Origin: Pseudobdellovibrionaceae bacterium
Lineage (GTDB): Bacteria > Bdellovibrionota > Bdellovibrionia > Bdellovibrionales > Bdellovibrionaceae
Reading direction: 5' to 3'
Assembly: GCA_016785955.1 (NCBI GenBank)
Contig: JAEUWH010000086.1
Coordinates: forward strand, 77,561-111,387
DNA length: 33,827 nucleotides
How positions within the stretch are numbered: position 1 is the stretch's first letter; the number at the start of each line of letters is the position of its first letter. Both the position numbers and the translations under genes were made by a program. Of the stretch, positions 13,233 through 23,879 are shown piece by piece. Below the pieces are notes generated by a model, which did not search any database, was not told the DNA's origin, and saw only the letters and a program-made list of their open reading frames with translations.

Positions 13233-14579
13233 ATGCCTTTTTTCCGTACACTATTAATATTGCCTCTCTTCGGACTCATTCATTGTGAAGGTCCACGATA
13301 TTATTCGGATCGGCAGCTTCAAAAGCTCAACGAATTACCGGCGCTGAAAGTTCTCATTTTAAAACATCCACTGTCTTTTTCGACTAAAGCTCGGAATATA
13401 AGCCAAGGCATCGATCATGACCTACTCGTTGATTTCGCTTCCGCGTACGGCAAAAAAATAGAATTCAAATCCTATCGTAACGAAGATGACTTAATTACCG
13501 CTTATAAAAATGGCGAAGGTCACGTGGCCGCTGGTCGCTTTCCCCGAGCCTTTGGTGAAAACCATGCCGCGATCTTAGGACCCGACTACGAGTCGGCCTC
13601 TTTGTCTGTTTTTTGCCGCAAAAAAATTAATGTCATAAACGACCATGATCTTTCCAACTTGGACATTATCTCGTTTGATAGAAACAAAAATGTTGTTTCG
13701 CATCTTGAGCTGGTAAAACAAAATCCCAATGCCCGTATCCAGGTTTGGCTGAACGGCTCCACGGCCCGCGCTTTTTCAGAAATTGATAGTAAAAAAGCGG
13801 ACTGTTTAATTACTAATAACAAAGAGGGTCTTTTTCATTTGAAAGCCTTTAACACGATCGAATTCAAATATAAGTTGAAAGATCACTTTTCACTGAATTG
13901 GCTGATTGCCAGCTCCCAAGCCTATCTTAATCCCCTAATGAGAAGCTGGTTTCAAAAAGCATCTCGTGAAGGGCGTATACAAAAAATTTACGAACAATAC
14001 CGTATCTATTCTGAAGAGCTGAGCCAAAAAGATATTGAAATTTTTAAACTACGTACCCGTTCTCGATTGCCCGAATATATTTCATTGTTCAAGCAGGCCG
14101 GGCTTAAATACGACCTACCCTGGGAGTTAGTGGCTGCCGTCTGCTATCAAGAATCTCATTGGGATGCCTCCGCCCGCAGCTTTACTGGAGTTAAGGGGTT
14201 GATGCAAATCACGAAATCAACGGCCGCCGATTTAGGGATTGATGATATCCACGATCCCGAAGAAAATATTCTGGGTGGGGCGCGCTACTTAAAACAACTC
14301 ATACAATTTTTTCCAAAAGACATTTCATTCAATGATCGCGTTATTTTGGCTCTTGCCGCGTATAATATTGGTATCGGGCATCTTCAAGATGCGTTTAGCC
14401 TAACTCAATCATTTGGTAAAAATCCTTACCATTGGAACCAACTGAAAACGGTGCTTCCTAAACTGGCGCAGAACGAGTTTCATCGCAACACTCAATATGG
14501 TTATGCTCGTGGCTACGAAACCGTCGAGTACGTCGACAAAACTAAAGCCTACTTCCACTATCTTTTAAGCACTCACTAA
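13233..14579 (+). CDS. mltF: Lytic murein transglycosylase F
   Basis: Cleaves the glycan strands of peptidoglycan to 1,6-anhydro products. The MltF order is clear: signal sequence, an ABC-type substrate-binding (SBP_bac_3) domain at about residues 35-260 that acts as a regulator, and a C-terminal SLT domain at about 285-448. Catalytic Glu307 lies in CYQESHWD, followed by GVKGLMQIT and the AAYNIGIGH motif. The N-terminus reads GLIHC with Cys18 at a lipobox-like position. His before the Cys is unusual, so lipidation is likely but not certain. The ribosome binding site is weak. It converges with glmS, which makes wall precursors. Confidence 0.9.
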   Translation: MPFFRTLLILPLFGLIHCEGPRYYSDRQLQKLNELPALKVLILKHPLSFSTKARNISQGIDHDLLVDFASAYGKKIEFKSYRNEDDLITAYKNGEGHVAAGRFPRAFGENHAAILGPDYESASLSVFCRKKINVINDHDLSNLDIISFDRNKNVVSHLELVKQNPNARIQVWLNGSTARAFSEIDSKKADCLITNNKEGLFHLKAFNTIEFKYKLKDHFSLNWLIASSQAYLNPLMRSWFQKASREGRIQKIYEQYRIYSEELSQKDIEIFKLRTRSRLPEYISLFKQAGLKYDLPWELVAAVCYQESHWDASARSFTGVKGLMQITKSTAADLGIDDIHDPEENILGGARYLKQLIQFFPKDISFNDRVILALAAYNIGIGHLQDAFSLTQSFGKNPYHWNQLKTVLPKLAQNEFHRNTQYGYARGYETVEYVDKTKAYFHYLLSTH

Positions 14580-14600
14580 GAAAGCATGCACCTGTTGCGA

Positions 14601-14624
14601 CCGTTTATTCTGCCGTTTATTCTA
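14601..14624 (-). repeat. 12-base tandem duplication across the glmS stop codon
   Basis: Two direct 12-base copies on the plus strand, CCGTTTATTCTG and CCGTTTATTCTA, differ at one base. On the coding strand each carries an in-frame TAA, so glmS is followed by a second in-frame stop four codons later. It looks like a replication-slippage duplication. Confidence 0.75.
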
Positions 14625-16500
14625 CCGTTACCGACTTTGCCAAATTTCTGGGTTGATCGACGTCATAGCCCAAAACCGACGATAAATGATAAGCCATCAA
14701 CTGAAGCGGAATCACAAACAAGATCGGATTTGTTAACCAGTCAGAGGACGGGATAGGCAGATACATTTTACTGATCCGCTTCAGAGCGTGATCATCCCCC
14801 GATCCCAACGAAATGATGTAACCTCCACGCGCCTTAACTTCTTCAATATTACTCACTGTCTTCTCGAAATACGAGTCCCGAGGGGCTACCATAACCACCG
14901 CCATACGCTCGTCGATCAGGGCAATCGGCCCATGTTTCATTTCACCAGCCGCGTAGCCCTCGGCATGCAAGTAGGCTAACTCTTTTAGTTTCAAAGCACC
15001 TTCCATCGCAATGGGAAAGTTCGTTCCACGTCCCATAAATAAAAAGCCACGAAAATCTTTTAACGAGTTCGCTGCGGCCAGAAAGTATTTATCATACGAC
15101 AAAACCACTTCCATCTTGCTGGGAACGGATCGCAAGCTCATCACGAAATTTTTTTCTTCGTCAGGACTCAACGTTTTACGAATTTGACCCAGACCCAGCG
15201 CAAATACGTTCAGCATCGCGATTGTCGCCGTAAAGGCTTTGGTACTGGCCACACCAATTTCGGGGCCGGCATTCATATACAAATGACCATCCGCAAATCG
15301 ATCAATCGACGAATTTTTAACGTTACACAATGACAGCGTCGTCGCCCCCCGCTCTTTGGCCAAGCGAATCGCGGCCAAGGTGTCAGCCGTTTCCCCACTT
15401 TGCGAGATCGTCATCACTAAAGAGTTTTTTGGTACGACGGGATCACGATATCGAAACTCGCTGGCAATATCGATTTCGACCGGCAATTGCGCGATTTTTT
15501 CGATAAAATATTTTGCAATATTGCCGGCATAAAAACTGGTACCGCACGCGATGATGAAAACGCGCTCGATTCCTTGCAAGATACGTTGAGTATTTTCCCA
15601 GTCTTTTTCAACATCGATAGAATCACGATGTTCAAAATAATTTTTATCCAAGAACCCGACGCGGTTCAACACCACGCGGTCACCACAAAGATGCGTTTGC
15701 ACCGCCGTCGCCACCGTTCGGGGTTGCTCATGAATTTCCTTTAGCATAAAATGGGCAAAGCCCTGCTTTTCTGTTAGCTCGGGACTCCAATTCAACGTCA
15801 CGGACTTACGCTCGATAGGCACTCCATGCGATGAAAATAACTGCACCTTGTCGGCCAGAAGTTTCACAATTTCACGGTCATTTAAATAGATGAACTCTTG
15901 AGTGTACTTGATCAATGCTTGAACATCACTAGCGACAAAATTTTCATTTTTACCAAGACCCACCACAAGCGGCGGCCCGTCTTTGAACGCGATCAGCTCG
16001 TTTGGGCTCTGTTCGCATAAAACCACTATTGAAAATGCCCCCACCAATTTCGGCAGAACACGCTCGACGGCTGTTTTTAAGTCTTTCACACGCTCGAATT
16101 CCTCGGCCACCAGATGCGCCACCAGTTCTGAATCCGTATCCGAAGCAATCTGTGCTCCACGTGCCAAAAGTCCTTCTTTAATTTCATGATAATTTTCGAT
16201 GATACCATTGTGAACCAAAGTAATCCCATGCACTTTGTGAGGATGAGCGTTGCGCTCGGATGGAACACCATGGGTCGCCCATCGCGTGTGACCAATTCCC
16301 ACATGACCCGTCCATGTTTCATTTTTAATGCGATCTTCTAAGGCCTGCAGCTTGCCTGTGGCTTTGACCAGCTTCGTATTGCCATCCTGAAGAATGGCTA
16401 AACCGGCGCTGTCATAGCCACGATATTCTAGCTTTTTTAATCCTTGCATGATCACATCTTTAGGATTTAACGGCCCTAAATAACCAACGATTCCACACAT
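14617..16500 (-). CDS. glmS: Glutamine-fructose-6-phosphate aminotransferase
   Basis: Makes glucosamine-6-phosphate from fructose-6-phosphate and glutamine, the first step to UDP-GlcNAc. It begins MCGIVGYLG, so Cys2 is the N-terminal glutaminase nucleophile; HTRWATHG and HNGIIENY follow. Two SIS sugar-isomerase domains cover about residues 300-610 (ACGTSFYAGN, SQSGETADT, GEMKHGPIALI). It ends DQPRNLAKSVTVE, the canonical C-terminus. 627 residues is slightly longer than the usual 609. It follows glmU with a 12-base gap, so they form an operon with the two consecutive pathway genes. No glmS ribozyme or GlcN6P-type leader is present in the short gap. Confidence 0.97.
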   Translation of the reverse strand: MCGIVGYLGPLNPKDVIMQGLKKLEYRGYDSAGLAILQDGNTKLVKATGKLQALEDRIKNETWTGHVGIGHTRWATHGVPSERNAHPHKVHGITLVHNGIIENYHEIKEGLLARGAQIASDTDSELVAHLVAEEFERVKDLKTAVERVLPKLVGAFSIVVLCEQSPNELIAFKDGPPLVVGLGKNENFVASDVQALIKYTQEFIYLNDREIVKLLADKVQLFSSHGVPIERKSVTLNWSPELTEKQGFAHFMLKEIHEQPRTVATAVQTHLCGDRVVLNRVGFLDKNYFEHRDSIDVEKDWENTQRILQGIERVFIIACGTSFYAGNIAKYFIEKIAQLPVEIDIASEFRYRDPVVPKNSLVMTISQSGETADTLAAIRLAKERGATTLSLCNVKNSSIDRFADGHLYMNAGPEIGVASTKAFTATIAMLNVFALGLGQIRKTLSPDEEKNFVMSLRSVPSKMEVVLSYDKYFLAAANSLKDFRGFLFMGRGTNFPIAMEGALKLKELAYLHAEGYAAGEMKHGPIALIDERMAVVMVAPRDSYFEKTVSNIEEVKARGGYIISLGSGDDHALKRISKMYLPIPSSDWLTNPILFVIPLQLMAYHLSSVLGYDVDQPRNLAKSVTVE

Positions 16501-16512
16501 ACTTGTTTCCCT

Positions 16513-17901
16513 TTATGATTTGGGCTTGTAGTTTTCTTTGATGACTTGTGGTGACCGCGTCACCGCTAGTGCATTGGCCGGAACATTTTTAGTGATCACC
16601 GAACCCGCACCAATGGTCGCTCCCGCGCCAATCTCGATCGGCGCGATTAACTGCACATCACTGCCGATAAAGCAATTATCGCCCACTTTGGTTTTATGTT
16701 TTGTCTTGTTTGGCAGGTAATTTACAAAAATAGTTCCACACCCAATATTAGTATTGGCCCCAACGTCAGCATCACCGATATAGGCCAAGTGAGCCGCTTT
16801 TGTGTGTTTACCCAATTTTGATTTTTTCACTTCCACAAAATTTCCAATATGCACTTCTTCCAGAAGCTCGCTGTCTGGTCGCACCCGTGCATACGGTCCG
16901 ACGCTGCACTTTGTACGAATGATCGAAGACTCCAAATAACTTCCTGCACGGATTTGCACACTGTCTTCAATCATCGTATCCACGATAAACGCATTAGGTT
17001 CAATCATACAAAACTTACCTATCTTCGTATGACCTTTGATATAACTGCCAGGATAAATAACCGTTCCCGGCGCCACCTCAACCGTTTCTTCGATGTATGT
17101 ATTTCTGGGATCGATAATCAACACACCCGATTCCATCAACTTTTTCATATGAGATTTAAAAACAATCTTGGTCGCTTTCGCCAATTCGATTTGATTGTTC
17201 ACCCCCATCGAAACATTCTTAGCACCTGTAATCGTTTTCACTTTTTTGCGTTCACTAATCCCCAACGAAATAATATCGGTCAGATAGTATTCTTTTTTTA
17301 AGTTTTGATTTTTGATATCGGGAAGTAACAAGTTCAGAATCGCCGCTCGGGTTAAGTAAATTCCCGTATTCACTTCTTTAATTTTTTTTGCCTCGGCGGA
17401 CGCATCTTTGGCTTCGACAATCGCGTACAACTCTCCACCACTGCGCACGACACGACCAAAATCACCAGGTTCTTTCAAAACCGTGCTGACTAAACCGATG
17501 TCCAATTTTTGTTCTTTGAATTCCCGAATAAAACCTTCGATATCACGAGCTTCGATCAATGGATGATCACCATTTAAAATGATAATGTTGCCCTCAATCG
17601 TTTCGGGTTGTGCCGAACGAACCGCATCGGCGGTTCCCAATTGCTGTTTCTGCTCGAAAAATGAAACGCCTTCGGTTTCAAGCACGTTCTTCACTAATCC
17701 CGCACCATGGCCCACCACGACTCGAATATCGTTAACACCCGCTTTTTTACAGCACGCGATAACCCTTGAAATCATAGGCTTTCCTGCCACGGGATGCAGC
17801 ACTTTGGGAAGCGACGAATTCATTCGCGTTCCTTTGCCAGCAGCTAAAATAATGGCGGTGAAGGGCAAATCTTTACTTTTGATTTCATCTTTTTCAGTCA
17901 T
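16513..17901 (-). CDS. glmU: Bifunctional UDP-GlcNAc pyrophosphorylase / GlcN-1-P acetyltransferase
   Basis: Two-domain enzyme making UDP-GlcNAc for peptidoglycan and LPS. The N-terminal uridyltransferase has LAAGKGTRM, QQLGTADAV and NGDHPLI. The C-terminal left-handed beta-helix has hexapeptide repeats and the acetyltransferase residues in RVRPDS, EVKKSKLG and AHLAYIGDAD. 462 residues is the normal size. One oddity is that the usually conserved NYDG reads NYLP here (FVNYLPNKTKHKT); Asn and Tyr remain, but Asp and Gly are replaced. The start has only a weak, close ribosome binding site (AGGG two bases away). Confidence 0.96.
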   Translation of the reverse strand: MTEKDEIKSKDLPFTAIILAAGKGTRMNSSLPKVLHPVAGKPMISRVIACCKKAGVNDIRVVVGHGAGLVKNVLETEGVSFFEQKQQLGTADAVRSAQPETIEGNIIILNGDHPLIEARDIEGFIREFKEQKLDIGLVSTVLKEPGDFGRVVRSGGELYAIVEAKDASAEAKKIKEVNTGIYLTRAAILNLLLPDIKNQNLKKEYYLTDIISLGISERKKVKTITGAKNVSMGVNNQIELAKATKIVFKSHMKKLMESGVLIIDPRNTYIEETVEVAPGTVIYPGSYIKGHTKIGKFCMIEPNAFIVDTMIEDSVQIRAGSYLESSIIRTKCSVGPYARVRPDSELLEEVHIGNFVEVKKSKLGKHTKAAHLAYIGDADVGANTNIGCGTIFVNYLPNKTKHKTKVGDNCFIGSDVQLIAPIEIGAGATIGAGSVITKNVPANALAVTRSPQVIKENYKPKS

Positions 17902-17909
17902 GACCCTAA

Positions 17910-17932
17910 ATTATCACTCTTTACTTGATAAT
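17910..17932. promoter_or_regulatory. Inverted repeat upstream of glmU
   Basis: ATTATCA and TGATAAT flank nine bases, starting nine bases before the glmU start codon. The position suits an operator for the glmU-glmS operon. The regulator is unknown. Confidence 0.35.
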
Positions 17933-18080
17933 CCAGCGATATTTGCGACAATTAACTAAATCTTCGCCAGATAAGTTTTTTCGAAGTGACCCGATAGAGA
18001 CCCAACTCAGAATCGGTCGACACCGGTTTCACAAAGAAAAACTTATTTGTGGACTTTTTCTCACACGTTAGGAAAATAGA

Positions 18081-18776
18081 ATGACTTATAAGGCGATTGC
18101 CTTCGATCTTGACGATACTCTCATTGATACAACCAATGAGCTGATTCCATTTGCGTGTCGCAAAATACACACCTATCTTTTGTCCGAGGGATATCCGGGC
18201 ACCTTTGAAGAGTTTGATGTTTTGCGAAAAAATTTTGTTAAAACCAAATCACATAAAGAATTTTTTAAAAATTTAGTGTCCACTTTTTCCATTCAGGACT
18301 CGTCTCGACGTCCCGACATTATTTCAAATTTGAATCAACTTTTCTACGAACCAACAATCCCTTCCCATCTGACGATGATGCCAGGTGCAGAAGATAATCT
18401 GATGTATTTGGGATCGAAATATACTCTGTTCGTAGTCACCGCCGGAGTGGTCGCGGCTCAAAAACGTAAATTGGCCCAATTGCGGATCGAACGTTATGTT
18501 AAACATGCTCATGTACTTATTGTTGGCGAGGGGGCCTTCTCGACTAAAAAAACCGCATTTGAAAAAATCCTTCAAGATGAAGACCTAAGACCCCAAGAAC
18601 TTTTGTCGATCGGCAATCGACTTTCTCAAGAAATTCGCATGGCCAAACAATTGGCCTGTGACACGTGCTATTTCCAACATGGCGAACACGCCGAAGACAC
18701 GGCTCAAGATCATTTTGAAATACCCGATTTTACCATTCACTCGCACAAGGAATTGATTTCCACATGTCGGCTATAA
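18081..18776 (+). CDS. HAD-superfamily hydrolase (phosphatase-like)
   Basis: 231 residues with AGGA eight bases before the ATG. HAD motif I is DLDDTL near the start (nucleophile and acid/base Asp), motif II is the Thr in FVVTAG, motif III is Lys in STKKTAFEKIL, and motif IV is IGNRLSQEI, where an Asn-Arg and Glu replace the more common GDxxxD. An alpha-helical cap lies between motifs I and II (about 15-95). Substrate unknown; small HAD proteins of this type hydrolyse sugar phosphates or phosphoglycolate. The next gene starts 13 bases before this stop, so the pair is translationally coupled. This suggests a link to the signalling protein that follows. Confidence 0.85.
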   Translation: MTYKAIAFDLDDTLIDTTNELIPFACRKIHTYLLSEGYPGTFEEFDVLRKNFVKTKSHKEFFKNLVSTFSIQDSSRRPDIISNLNQLFYEPTIPSHLTMMPGAEDNLMYLGSKYTLFVVTAGVVAAQKRKLAQLRIERYVKHAHVLIVGEGAFSTKKTAFEKILQDEDLRPQELLSIGNRLSQEIRMAKQLACDTCYFQHGEHAEDTAQDHFEIPDFTIHSHKELISTCRL

Positions 18777-20128
18777 TTCACAAATTCTTATTGGTGGGCC
18801 CTTGGCCCAAAAGCCTTGCAGAAATTGGCGCCGTCATCGTGAATGATCTTTATGAGGCCAACTATCAATTTGATCGCTCGCAAATAGATGTATTAGGAAT
18901 TAATCTGACGGCGGTCTTAGAGAAACGATTCTTTGACCTTTACACTAAATGGAAACAGAACAATCCTCATTTACAAGTCGTTGTGGTCATCCCGTCCGAT
19001 TTTTCAAAGAAATCGTTGCTGGATCTTCAGTGGAAGTATTCATTCAGTAAGATATTCACGTCCTACAGTGATAAAAATATCGAACAATATTTAAACTTGT
19101 CCTTAGAGAAATCCTATCAAGAAAAGCAATTTGAAAACTATCGAAGCCTTCTGGAAGAACAAAGCAAGAAACTGGAAAAATTAAAATACAGCCTGGACGA
19201 CAAAATAGAAAAACGGACTAAATTTTTGGTCGAGTCTCGACGCAAATTATTTTTGACGAACATTCGGATTGAGTCTTTTCGTAAAGCATTGACGGCGGTC
19301 TACCAATCTCACAATTTAGCAGAGTTGGAAAAAAATTTAAATGAAGAACTTTTGCGAACATTTGAAATTCAGTGGATTAAAATTCTCTTCGCCCCTCAGG
19401 ACGAGCAATTTGTAAAAGAACTCGAGTCCCAATTGCAATACCAACATTTACGCTTTCGTGTTCACAAACAAAACAACGAAATAGGCTCGGTGTTTTTCAT
19501 GCGCTCGCTGCAAAAACCTTTCGCCAAGGAAGAATCCGAGTTCCTGGCGCGCGTTGCAGAAGCTGTCAGCATCGCCACGGAACGTTTTGAAAATCGTGTA
19601 AAGCTGGAACGCATTCATGATTACTGGAAAACTCTTTTTAATGCCATCAAAGACGCCATCATACTGATTGATCCCGAATATAATATCATCCAGACAAATA
19701 TGGAAAAATTTGACGGCCAAAAAAAATGTCATGAATTTCTATTTGGAAAATCAAGCCCCTGCGAAGGTTGTCGCCTGGGTCAAAAATTTGAAATTCAACA
19801 TATCAATGAAAGCTTTGAAGTCGCTGGTCAATTGGTGGTTTTGGAGGGACGGCGATATGCCATACATTATTACCGCAATACCACCAAAAAGCACGAGCTG
19901 GAGAAAGAACTTTTAGAACTGGCGCCTAAAGCCGAACTTGGAATTTTATCCAGTAGTATCGCACATGAAATCAATAATCCTTTGGGCGGACTGCTTTCTT
20001 ATACACAATTATTGCTAATGGATACGAACGAATCCTCCCCCATGCATACTGATTTGAAATCAATGGAAATCGCGATCAAAAAGTGCGCGGAAATCGTAAA
20101 TAATTTATTAGTCAACACTCGCACTTAG
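18764..20128 (+). CDS. Histidine-kinase-like sensor with H-box domain but no ATPase domain
   Basis: 454 residues. In order: an N-terminal receiver-like fold (about 1-120, FLLVGPWPKSL to FTSYSDKNIEQYL), a coiled coil (about 125-170), a GAF-like domain (about 175-285), a PAS domain (about 290-375) and a HisKA dimerisation domain with His401 in SSSIAHEINNPLGG. The protein ends 53 residues after the His, so the HATPase_c domain (N, G1, G2 boxes) is absent. I saw no continuation in any frame before the next gene. The PAS domain carries Cys322, Cys333 and Cys336 (KKCHEFLFG, SPCEGC), a pattern common in PAS sensors and possibly redox- or metal-responsive. It could be a phosphotransfer protein serving another kinase, a dominant partner in a heterodimer, or a truncated gene. 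The sigma-54 activator begins about 300 bases downstream. Confidence 0.82.
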   Translation: MSAIIHKFLLVGPWPKSLAEIGAVIVNDLYEANYQFDRSQIDVLGINLTAVLEKRFFDLYTKWKQNNPHLQVVVVIPSDFSKKSLLDLQWKYSFSKIFTSYSDKNIEQYLNLSLEKSYQEKQFENYRSLLEEQSKKLEKLKYSLDDKIEKRTKFLVESRRKLFLTNIRIESFRKALTAVYQSHNLAELEKNLNEELLRTFEIQWIKILFAPQDEQFVKELESQLQYQHLRFRVHKQNNEIGSVFFMRSLQKPFAKEESEFLARVAEAVSIATERFENRVKLERIHDYWKTLFNAIKDAIILIDPEYNIIQTNMEKFDGQKKCHEFLFGKSSPCEGCRLGQKFEIQHINESFEVAGQLVVLEGRRYAIHYYRNTTKKHELEKELLELAPKAELGILSSSIAHEINNPLGGLLSYTQLLLMDTNESSPMHTDLKSMEIAIKKCAEIVNNLLVNTRT

Positions 20129-20312: not shown

Positions 20313-20340
20313 TTGACAGTACTGTCAATTTTTTATAACA
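20313..20340 (+). promoter_or_regulatory. Promoter of the sigma-54 activator gene with a palindrome over the -35
   Basis: TTGACA (20313-20318), a 16-base spacer and TATAAC (20335-20340). The -35 is embedded in a perfect 16-base palindrome, TTGACAGTACTGTCAA (20313-20328), which would block polymerase if bound, so repression or autoregulation is likely. Confidence 0.65.
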
Positions 20341-20387
20341 TAAATTATGTCACGACAGCAGCCAATGAATGGCCGCTAGATACAGAG

Positions 20388-20431: not shown

Positions 20432-21841
20432 ATGAAGAATCCAAGAGTGTTGATTCTAGAAGATGACTCTCAACTGCGCACGGTTCTTTCGCGAGCAATT
20501 TCAAAACGAAGTTTAGACGTAGTCACCTCTTCGACACTGCACGAAGCCAAAATGTTTGCTCAAAGTGAAGCTCAGTTTGACTTGGCGATTGTTGATATGA
20601 GTCTGCCAGATGGGAATGGCCTGGACTTTATGGATATCTTGAAAAGAATGAATCCTTCTATCGAAGTCATTGTTCTGACAGGATTCGCAACGATCGAAAC
20701 AGCAATCTCGGCAACGCAACGGGGTGCCTATCATTTTATGACAAAACCCGTAAATGTGGACGAACTCCTGGGACTTGTCGATAAAGCGCTCGAACATAAA
20801 AAACTTCAAGTAGAAAACAAAATTCTTAAGACGGTAGTCAATAAGAAATACAAATTTGATCAAATCATTGGACGCAGCGAAGGCATCCAAAATATTTTAA
20901 ACCTCGTCGAAAAGGTGGCGGACTCGGACGCGACCGTTTTAGTGACTGGTCAAAGTGGCACAGGGAAAGAGCTCATTGCCAAAGCGATCCATTTTAATTC
21001 ATCTCGTTCCAATGGGCCATTCATCGCCATCAACTGCGGCGCAATTCCTTCAGAACTGCTAGAAAGCGAACTGTTTGGACATGTTAAAGGCGCATTTACA
21101 GGCGCCATTAGCAATCGCTTAGGACGTTTTGAAATGGCCGACAGTGGCACTTTATTTCTTGATGAAATTGGTGATTTAGACCCTAGCCTGCAAGTCAAAA
21201 TACTGCGCGCACTGCAAGAGAAATCTTTCGAACCTGTGGGTGGCGTAAAAACGGTACATGTAAACGTTCGAGTGATCGCGGCGACGAACATCAATCTGGA
21301 AAAAGCCGTCGAAGAGGGGCGTTTTCGCGAAGATCTATATTACCGATTGAACGTCATTCCAATGCAACTACCAGCTTTACAAGAGCGCAAACCAGATATT
21401 CCTTTGCTGCTCAATCATTTCCTTGGTCAGTTTAATAAATTCAAAACAAAGCGTCTAGTCGGCTTCAGTGAGGCTGCGTTAGAAAGCCTAACACAATATC
21501 CATGGCCAGGAAATATTCGCGAACTAGAAAATTTAGTAGAACGTTTAAGCATTCTTAAAACCGAAGGCATAGTAGAGATTTCAGACCTTCCCCCTAAATA
21601 CCAAGTCAAAGTCGAAAAAAAGGAAGACTTTCAATTCGAAGATATTCCCGACAATGGCTTAGATTTCAATTCGGCTGTTGATGCATTCGAAAACAGTCTT
21701 ATTTTGAAGGCCCTGGAAAAAACCGGCTGGAACCGCAATCAGGCGGCCGCTTTACTCAGGTTAAACCGCACCACACTGGTAGAGAAAATCAAAAAGAAAG
21801 GGCTACGTCCCTATGGCGCTGGGCCTCAAATGGAAGTATAA
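20432..21841 (+). CDS. NtrC-family sigma-54-dependent response regulator
   Basis: 469 residues from the ATG at 20432, which has GGAAGG just upstream; an earlier in-frame ATG at 20369 lies in the leader. A receiver domain (1-120) has Glu10-Asp11-Asp12, phosphoacceptor Asp55, Thr83 and Lys105. The central AAA+ domain has Walker A GQSGTGKELIAKAIH, the sigma-54 contact GAFTGA inside ESELFGHVKGAFTGA, and Walker B TLFLDEIGDL. The C-terminal Fis-type helix-turn-helix is GWNRNQAAALLRLNRTTL. Phosphorylation should allow it to open sigma-54 promoters. The neighbouring kinase-like protein is a possible partner but lacks an ATPase domain. The sigma-54 promoter at 3955 is one candidate target. Confidence 0.95.
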   Translation: MKNPRVLILEDDSQLRTVLSRAISKRSLDVVTSSTLHEAKMFAQSEAQFDLAIVDMSLPDGNGLDFMDILKRMNPSIEVIVLTGFATIETAISATQRGAYHFMTKPVNVDELLGLVDKALEHKKLQVENKILKTVVNKKYKFDQIIGRSEGIQNILNLVEKVADSDATVLVTGQSGTGKELIAKAIHFNSSRSNGPFIAINCGAIPSELLESELFGHVKGAFTGAISNRLGRFEMADSGTLFLDEIGDLDPSLQVKILRALQEKSFEPVGGVKTVHVNVRVIAATNINLEKAVEEGRFREDLYYRLNVIPMQLPALQERKPDIPLLLNHFLGQFNKFKTKRLVGFSEAALESLTQYPWPGNIRELENLVERLSILKTEGIVEISDLPPKYQVKVEKKEDFQFEDIPDNGLDFNSAVDAFENSLILKALEKTGWNRNQAAALLRLNRTTLVEKIKKKGLRPYGAGPQMEV

Positions 21842-22007: not shown

Positions 22008-23879
22008 ATGAAACAAACTCAGACGTTTAATGCAGAAATTAAGAAACTTTTAGACCTTATGATCCACTCGCTATACTCTCATAAAGAAATCTTTCTTAGA
22101 GAGTTAGTCTCTAATGCCTCGGATGCCCTCGATAAACTACGCTTTGAAACGCTAACCAAGCCTGAACTAACACCTAAAGATCATACGTACCAAATACGCT
22201 TAATTCCCAATAAAGAAAATAAAACTCTTAAAATCCAAGACTCTGGGATTGGGATGACCAAGGAAGAAGTGGTCGAGTACATTGGGACAATTGCCCGTTC
22301 TGGAACGCAATCTTACCAAAAAATTTCACAGGAATTAAAAGATAGACCAGAATTAATTGGTCAATTTGGTGTTGGTTTCTACTCTTCATTTATGGTCGCA
22401 GAAAAAGTGACCCTTCACACTCAAAAAGCGGGCGCAAATAACGGCGTAGTATGGGAATCAAATGGTGATGGCACATATACAATTGATGAGGTCCCCCGCC
22501 CAGAAGGCACAGGAACCACAATTACACTTCATTTAAAAACATTCGAGGCCGATGATAACGTAAGTGATTTTACTGATGAGTGGACGCTTAAATCTTTGGT
22601 TAAAAAATATTCTGATTTTATTTCTCACCCCATCGTAATGAAAACAAAAAATCAGGACAAAGAAGAAGATCAAACTTTAAATTCGATGAAAGCTCTTTGG
22701 CTGCGCTCTGCAAGTGATATTAAACCCGAGGAATACACAGAGTTTTATCATCACCTGTCACATGATTGGAATGATCCTTTAAAAACGGTCCACTATAAAG
22801 CGGAAGGCACGATGGAGTTTAACTGCCTACTGTACATTCCGGCTAAAAAGCCTTTCAATTTCCATTCACGTGATACTGACTATGGCTTAAATCTTTATGT
22901 TAAACGCGTTTTCATCATGAATGATTGCAAAGATTTAATTCCTCAACACCTACGCTTTGTCAAAGGCCTAGTCGACAGCGCTGATTTATCTTTGAATGTC
23001 TCTAGGGAAATTTTGCAGCAAGATCGTCAAGTGCAGTTGATTAAAAAGAACGTCACTCATAAAATCTACACTACACTGAAAGAGCTTCTTACAAATTCAC
23101 GTAAAGAATACGAAGGATTCTGGAAAGAGTTTGGCTCGACCTTGAAAGAAGGAATCGCGATGGATATGTCGGCTAAAGACAAACTTCAAGATTTGCTGCT
23201 TTTCAATAGTTCAATCCAGGAAGGCCCTACGACCTTGGATGAATACATCACGCGCATGAAACCAGAACAAAAGGAAATTTTCTTTATAACTGGCGAAAGT
23301 TTGTCGCAAGTTAAGAATACTCCTTATATGGAAAAGCTAAATGAAAAAGGCTTTGAGGTTTTACTATGCGTAGATCCCGTAGATGAATGGGTAATGTCTT
23401 CGTTGACAACATACAAAGATAAAAAAATACAATCCATCACTCGTGATGATCTAAATTTAGACTCCGAGGAAGACAAAAAGAAAAAAGAAGAAGAAAATAA
23501 ATCACTAAAAGAACGTTTCATGCCTTTGATCGAAACCATGAAGTCTTCACTTGCGGAAAACATCAAAGACGTTGTGATCTCTGACCGATTAAGCACATCT
23601 GCGGCGGTTTTAGTAAATTCGGCAAATGATCCTTCCGCTAATATGGAACGCATCATGCATCGCATGGGTGGGGATTTACAAGCACCCAAAGTCAAACGTA
23701 TTTTGGAACTGAACCTGAAACACCCATTGTTCGAAGCAATGATTGCCAAACCTGAAACTGAACAAAAAACTTGGTCCGAAATTCTGTACAATCAAGCTCT
23801 GTTAAATGAAGGCTCCGAGTTGCCAGATCCAGGAAAGTTCACAAAACAAATCTCTGACTTAATGGCCAGAGTAAACTAA
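22008..23879 (+). CDS. htpG: Chaperone HtpG (Hsp90)
   Basis: ATP-dependent cytosolic chaperone, 623 residues, about the length of E. coli HtpG. The N-terminal GHKL ATPase shows [34 protein letters not shown] and [15 protein letters not shown]. The middle domain has LNVSREILQ, with the Arg that contacts ATP. A charged stretch ([13 protein letters not shown]) precedes the C-terminal dimerisation domain. AAGGAG lies just before the ATG. The stop codon overlaps the ribosome binding site of the thioredoxin gene, so htpG and trx are co-translated. Confidence 0.98.

Follow-up and report, generated by a model that had tools for sequence, protein, structure and literature searches.

A conserved histidine kinase-like sensor without an ATPase domain as a possible phospho-acceptor subunit of a two-gene kinase

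Histidine kinases are nearly always regarded as homodimers that work without a partner, and a HisKA protein lacking an ATPase (CA) domain counts as broken to gene callers. In the FasB/FasC heterodimer of Streptococcus, FasC can do without its own kinase domain, and phosphorylation probably takes place on its His246 (PMC12675982). Acceptor and catalytic domains are likewise found on separate proteins in the CheA3/CheA4 split kinase of Rhodobacter, where the acceptor protein doubles as a phosphatase (PMC3591291). PhyT, Spo0B and ChpT are degenerate histidine kinases that serve as phosphotransferases (PMC5898713), and CA-truncated ChrS of Corynebacterium enhances signalling through its paralogue HrrS with no need of its own His (PMC9491836). 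Within the HisKA domain, the Glu directly after the His was needed for autophosphorylation but dispensable for phosphatase activity in four tested kinases, and the same source describes the His-containing dimerisation domain (DHp) of NtrB or EnvZ alone as sufficient for a constitutive phosphatase phenotype (PMC3510030). Our literature search for papers joining Bdellovibrio, histidine kinase and pseudokinase found none, and the papers it turned up that name Bdellovibrio with sigma54 regulators concerned other topics. Here we describe a CA-less sensor and, from sequence comparisons across its order, give an even chance to the reading that it serves a two-gene kinase as phospho-acceptor and phosphatase, in function akin to FasBC.

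The sensor gene lies in the window, by which we mean the whole stretch of 33,827 nucleotides that was analysed, and its features are collected in Table 1. Its H-box, SSSIAHEINNPLGG, contains His401, and the protein stops 53 residues beyond this His, at residue 454, which places its end at the DHp/CA boundary. The sole Pfam match in the sensor is HisKA (PF00512; residues 395-449, E=1.5e-8, above the gathering cut-off), and HATPase_c, with its N, G1, F and G2 boxes, is absent by the same search. When the 306 bp between the sensor and the next gene were searched in all frames by tblastn with seven orthologous CA domains, no CA remnant was found (best E no better than 0.1). Such an arrangement is rare in the window's genome, where 51 of the 53 HisKA matches, compared by hand, have an adjoining HATPase_c and those without one are the sensor and a single weak 79-aa frame. 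A few HATPase_c matches of this genome do fall in short frames (C68, 224 aa, is an example); the idea that the CA has moved elsewhere as a separate fragment was set aside, since the CA persists beside the DHp in outgroups.

Upstream of the H-box, the N-terminus of the sensor aligns with the receivers of the neighbouring NtrC-type proteins (hhalign P=3.9e-6, probability 87%), and none of the residues of this receiver-like domain is invariant across 29 orthologues. Pfam calls a GAF domain in 17 of 56 orthologues and a PAS domain in 10, the boundaries of both being approximate. Cys322, Cys333 and Cys336 are invariant in all 56 orthologues, CA-less ones included, and the CX10CxxC motif of the PAS-like domain to which they belong (19727-19771) suggests a bound metal, a cluster or a thiol switch as the input. 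An AlphaFold2 model of the sensor, made from an alignment of the window and three loci only, reached a pLDDT of 44 and a pTM of 0.25, values too low for the model to be of use. The initial annotation of the window had already described an intact H-box with no ATPase domain, an end 53 residues past His401, no CA boxes before the next gene, a receiver-like N-terminus, GAF and PAS domains and the three cysteines, and all of this was borne out.

Table 1. Positions in the window of the sensor, its domains and the neighbouring features.
Feature	Position	Strand	Basis or remark
HAD hydrolase, 13-bp overlap with sensor start	18081..18776	+	Pfam Hydrolase/HAD_2; synteny
CA-less sensor protein, 454 aa: pseudo-receiver, coiled coil, GAF, PAS, DHp	18764..20128	+	
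Receiver-like N-terminal domain, residues 1-118, boundary approximate	18764..19117	+	hhalign to NtrC receivers
PAS-like domain, residues ~285-380, with Cys322, Cys333 and Cys336	19616..19903	+	Boundary approximate
DHp (HisKA), residues 385-453, with Glu402 and Asn405; His401 codon at 19964-19966	19916..20122	+	Pfam HisKA
Perfect palindrome TTGACAGTACTGTCAA covering the -35 element of a promoter-like site that precedes the regulator gene	20313..20328	.	
NtrC-type response regulator: receiver, sigma-54 AAA+, Fis HTH	20432..21841	+	Pfam; synteny across the order

The locus is syntenic across the GTDB order, with glmS and glmU on the opposite strand, usually a HAD gene, then the sensor and the NtrC-type regulator, and the glmS-glmU-sensor-regulator synteny holds in most families of the order examined. 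In the window, the sensor is preceded by genes for an SLT transglycosylase, GlmS, GlmU and the HAD protein (13233-18776), and htpG (22008-23879) follows downstream. The initial annotation had coupled the sensor to the HAD gene. This stands as a physical statement, in that the two genes overlap and are translationally coupled. HAD divergence, however, is uncorrelated with sensor divergence, so the HAD protein is probably not a functional partner of the sensor. The regulator of the window has an intact pocket of phospho-Asp, Thr and Lys and an intact GAFTGA motif, and in a survey of its orthologues the acidic pair, phospho-Asp, Thr/Ser and Lys were kept in every copy with a complete receiver. 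In G031 (L067) and G041 (L070) the regulator directly downstream lacks a receiver and consists only of AAA+ and HTH domains, and the decayed sensor beside it retains its H-box; in G030 and G058 the regulator lies elsewhere in the genome and not beside the sensor. The promoter-like site before the regulator gene spans 20313-20341, and the palindrome within it is kept in all four CA-less congeners and has no second exact copy in the genome, so it is likely to be an operator for a local regulator.

A missing CA might suggest a decaying pseudogene or an assembly artefact. However, orthologues from three other species, all public metagenome assemblies of Bdellovibrionaceae or Bdellovibrio, are 83-85% identical to the sensor and stop at the same terminal residue. 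Most pairs are saturated at synonymous sites; the pair least affected by this gave a dN/dS of 0.015 for the whole gene and 0.004 for the DHp, and by this measure the CA-less sensor is under strong purifying selection. Ends common to four species, together with this dN/dS, exclude a recent truncation. With an identical end in four independent assemblies and a conserved operon, we regard the chance of a pseudogene or artefact as negligible. The initial annotation had taken a common end in several species as the mark of a real architecture, and close orthologues running on into an HATPase domain as that of a recent truncation; the closest orthologues end alike, and the two congeners at 53-56% identity carry only a degenerate C-terminal stretch where the CA would be.

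Other families of the order have orthologues whose N, G1, F and G2 boxes are all present. Among the orthologues examined from the window's own family, the F-box and ATP lid are missing throughout and G1 is in most cases broken, and every orthologue checked besides the sensor has a decayed CA or none. If genus g4 is Bdellovibrio, the orthologue in Bdellovibrio bacteriovorus is one of those with a decayed CA. The CA is entirely gone, with the protein ending 53-72 residues past the His, in the window clade, G042, G030, G122 and G126. We counted CA losses on a tree of the regulator, GlmU and GlmS, three genes of the locus other than the sensor, and found at least five independent complete losses, all of them forced by well-supported branches. 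Further DHp-only orthologues directly upstream of the regulator (G092, G095, G096, G102-G105 and G124, with family f9 among these lineages) came from genomes that the protein search had missed; some of these are fast evolving, so events beyond five are uncertain. Many of the genomes compared are metagenome assemblies.

The residues on which DHp chemistry depends have been retained. The His and the Asn at +4 are each present in 94 of 94 orthologues, all of which have an acidic residue, Glu or Asp, directly after the His. Among the 56 family members His, Glu and Asn do not vary, and no orthologue of the window sensor without the His was found. Identity in DHp helix 1 is 0.71 in the CA-less family compared with 0.75 in full-CA lineages, and CA identity falls from 0.36 in full-CA lineages to 0.24 in the CA-less family. 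HisKA phosphatases have Thr or Asn at His+4, the position taken by the invariant Asn405, and its retention predicts phosphatase activity. The invariant Glu402, in turn, predicts that His401 is still phosphorylated, though the sensor cannot bind ATP.

Phosphatase activity might also be all that the sensor has. As a dedicated phosphatase, which is the main rival of the two-gene kinase, it would only dephosphorylate the adjoining regulator, itself charged by another kinase or by acetyl phosphate, and the CA would have decayed since kinase activity was unneeded. We consider this rather unlikely, for all that HisKA phosphatase activity requires the Asn+4, which is invariant, the phosphorylation pocket of the regulator is preserved, the isolated DHp domains of NtrB and EnvZ are described in the source noted above as constitutive phosphatases, and DrBphP provides an example of a kinase-dead phosphatase (PMC8292422). 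Glu402, needed for kinase but not for phosphatase activity, is invariant throughout the CA-less family, and thus a pure phosphatase does not account for the pattern; it also leaves unexplained the reciprocal H-box damage and the co-divergence with a paralogue that are described below. A change of Glu to Gln in one clade of family f7 does fit a phosphatase. In this clade (G081, G089, G079 and G083; L132, L133, L263 and L264), which is additional to the 94 orthologues above, the motif reads HQLNNP, with the His kept and the CA decayed, which points to the pattern expected of a phosphatase-only form and, there, counts against a two-gene kinase.

The same residues bear on the proposal that the DHp is a scaffold or allosteric pseudokinase, like DivL or ChrS, that only binds a kinase or regulator and leaves the chemistry of His401 unused. 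Truncated ChrS, which acts on HrrS signalling without its own His, offers a precedent, but His, Glu and Asn are conserved in CA-less proteins over the entire order, and we hold this proposal to be highly improbable.

The closest full-length relative of the sensor in the window's genome is a 669-aa paralogue (G000:C5:32142-34148) with an equal domain order and a complete CA. It is unlinked to the sensor, neither protein has obvious membrane segments, and a single-domain receiver and rsmD lie downstream of it. The receiver gene (L002:675-1028, minus strand) overlaps the end of the paralogue gene and precedes rsmD, and this kinase-receiver pair recurs across the order. A profile of the paralogue found matches in 133 of 141 genomes of the order (E<=1e-55). 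In a survey of 83 genomes its N, G1, F and G2 motifs were intact with few exceptions, and CA motifs are present in every DHp-only lineage where the paralogue was recovered, G105 being the one where it was not. A 97% complete genome, G140 (L300), yielded no sensor orthologue, and its rsmD locus has no paralogue kinase, a possible joint loss of both proteins.

Comparing the H-boxes of the two proteins brings out a reciprocal pattern of damage. Among genomes in which the window orthologue has a full CA, only G121 (Glu to Ala) has a paralogue with a damaged H-box. Where the orthologue is DHp-only, the paralogue has lost its His in G030 (to Ser) and in G095 and G096 (to Asn), and its Glu in G122 (to Arg), G126 (to Leu) and G124, G102, G103 and G092 (to Gln); the His is also lost in G058 and G113, where the orthologue's CA is decayed. 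G030 and G095/G096 accordingly hold a paralogue with an intact CA and no His together with an orthologue that has the His and no CA. Counted by genus, 7 of 9 DHp-only genera have a paralogue without the His or the Glu, versus 1 of 22 full-CA genera (Fisher p=1e-4), in a table that was counted by hand and in which genera are not fully independent. Phylogenetically independent lineage pairs gave 2.4 for and 0 against, which is the expected direction, but there are at most 5-6 such pairs, too sparse to reach significance. In the window clade and G042, the paralogue H-box is intact.

The initial annotation had offered two roles for the sensor, a phosphorelay intermediate or a pseudokinase partner. 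The second fits better, the candidate partner being the paralogue with its intact CA. In a relay like those of Spo0B, ChpT and PhyT, a single-domain receiver, for example the neighbour of the paralogue, would pass phosphate to His401 and from there to the NtrC-type regulator. The sensor does have a His-containing dimerisation domain without a functional ATPase, as do the degenerate kinases that serve as phosphotransferases in those systems, and a single-domain receiver adjoins the paralogue in most genomes examined. However, in G030, G058, G095/G096 and G113 the paralogue has no His and cannot alone charge the receiver, which makes a relay less likely, and in G030 and G058 the receiver is absent from the paralogue locus; we find such a relay quite improbable. 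Our first working idea, a relay from the paralogue through the receiver to the DHp, was demoted when the paralogue His proved to be missing in some lineages, and in those lineages a relay starting at that His is ruled out.

The sensor and the paralogue also resemble one another in how they have diverged. The lengths upstream of the His correlate between the two proteins with r=0.85 over 80 genomes, and about two out of three independent lineage pairs are concordant in N-terminal length, the right direction but from too few pairs for significance. Once GlmU and GlmS had been corrected for linearly, distances in the sensor region of the orthologue and of the paralogue showed a correlation of 0.71; with a quadratic correction that also included the regulator, the partial r was 0.62 for the full set of genomes and ranged from 0.41 to 0.68 in subsets. 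The HAD gene, a control that is nearly as divergent, gave 0.02 and -0.07, and this comparison with a single fast gene shows that the co-divergence of the two sequences is not just fast evolution.

In the two-gene kinase that we propose, the intact CA of the paralogue would phosphorylate His401 in trans, most simply within a DHp heterodimer of sensor and paralogue, and the phosphate would then pass from His401 to the adjoining NtrC-type regulator. When not being phosphorylated, the sensor DHp with its Asn405 would instead dephosphorylate the regulator. We infer the physical pairing, the direction of phosphate transfer, the phosphatase activity and the identity of the regulator from the comparisons above. 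In the window clade the pairing would be one-sided, the sensor depending on the paralogue and not the reverse, because the paralogue H-box is intact there.

Several observations weigh against this proposal. With its H-box intact, the paralogue could act alone in the window clade and in G042, and in G121 the Glu of the paralogue has become Ala although the orthologue has a full CA. The adjoining regulator has no receiver to be phosphorylated in G031 and G041. Fifty-odd other kinases in the genome could be alternative donors, and the co-divergence was judged against a single fast control, the HAD gene. Extended to the whole order, the proposal is that two unlinked paralogous sensor kinases work as a heterodimer whose labour has been split several times, each time the same way: one subunit keeps the His and loses the ATPase and the other, in several lineages, keeps the ATPase and loses its His or catalytic Glu. 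We put this broader claim a shade below an even chance. If it is true, then the order preserves natural stages on the way from two kinases that each suffice alone to a single kinase that needs both genes.

The CA-less form described here is conserved, has arisen repeatedly and has a predicted partner. Natural pairs with complementary defects, such as that of G096, make the splitting of kinase and acceptor testable by mixing, and control of the conserved NtrC-type regulator in Bdellovibrio and its relatives may have to be reassigned.

Set beside known systems, the locus resembles in layout that of NtrB/NtrC, in which a cytoplasmic PAS-HisKA sensor stands next to an NtrC-type sigma-54 activator and the NtrB DHp alone acts as a phosphatase; NtrB, however, has a full CA, whereas the window sensor lacks one and adds a pseudo-receiver and a GAF domain. 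PhyT/PhyP, Spo0B and ChpT share with it an origin as a histidine kinase whose ATPase decayed and whose His-containing dimerisation domain was kept, but they are described as retaining the degenerate domain, which several lineages here have lost entirely, and phosphate here would probably come from a kinase paralogue and not from a receiver. ChrS has also lost its CA beside a retained paralogous kinase, with an interaction between the paralogues implicated, but it is a laboratory-selected form that does not need its His and for which, once truncated, no heterodimer was seen. CheA3/CheA4 is similar in dividing acceptor from catalytic domains and in having an acceptor that is also a phosphatase, a role that for our sensor is a prediction; its domains are of the CheA type (P1, P3 and P4), encoded in a chemotaxis cluster, with no HisKA DHp. 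FasB/FasC resembles our proposal in that one of two sensor proteins gives the kinase domain and the other bears the key His. Those, however, are membrane proteins from one co-transcribed operon, and FasC still has a CA-like domain, whereas here the genes are unlinked, membrane segments are not obvious and the CA is physically absent. What appears to be new, in comparison with all of these, is a putative HisKA acceptor subunit whose CA has disappeared completely and whose gene is unlinked to that of the presumed partner, with losses that are repeated and partly reciprocal over an order.
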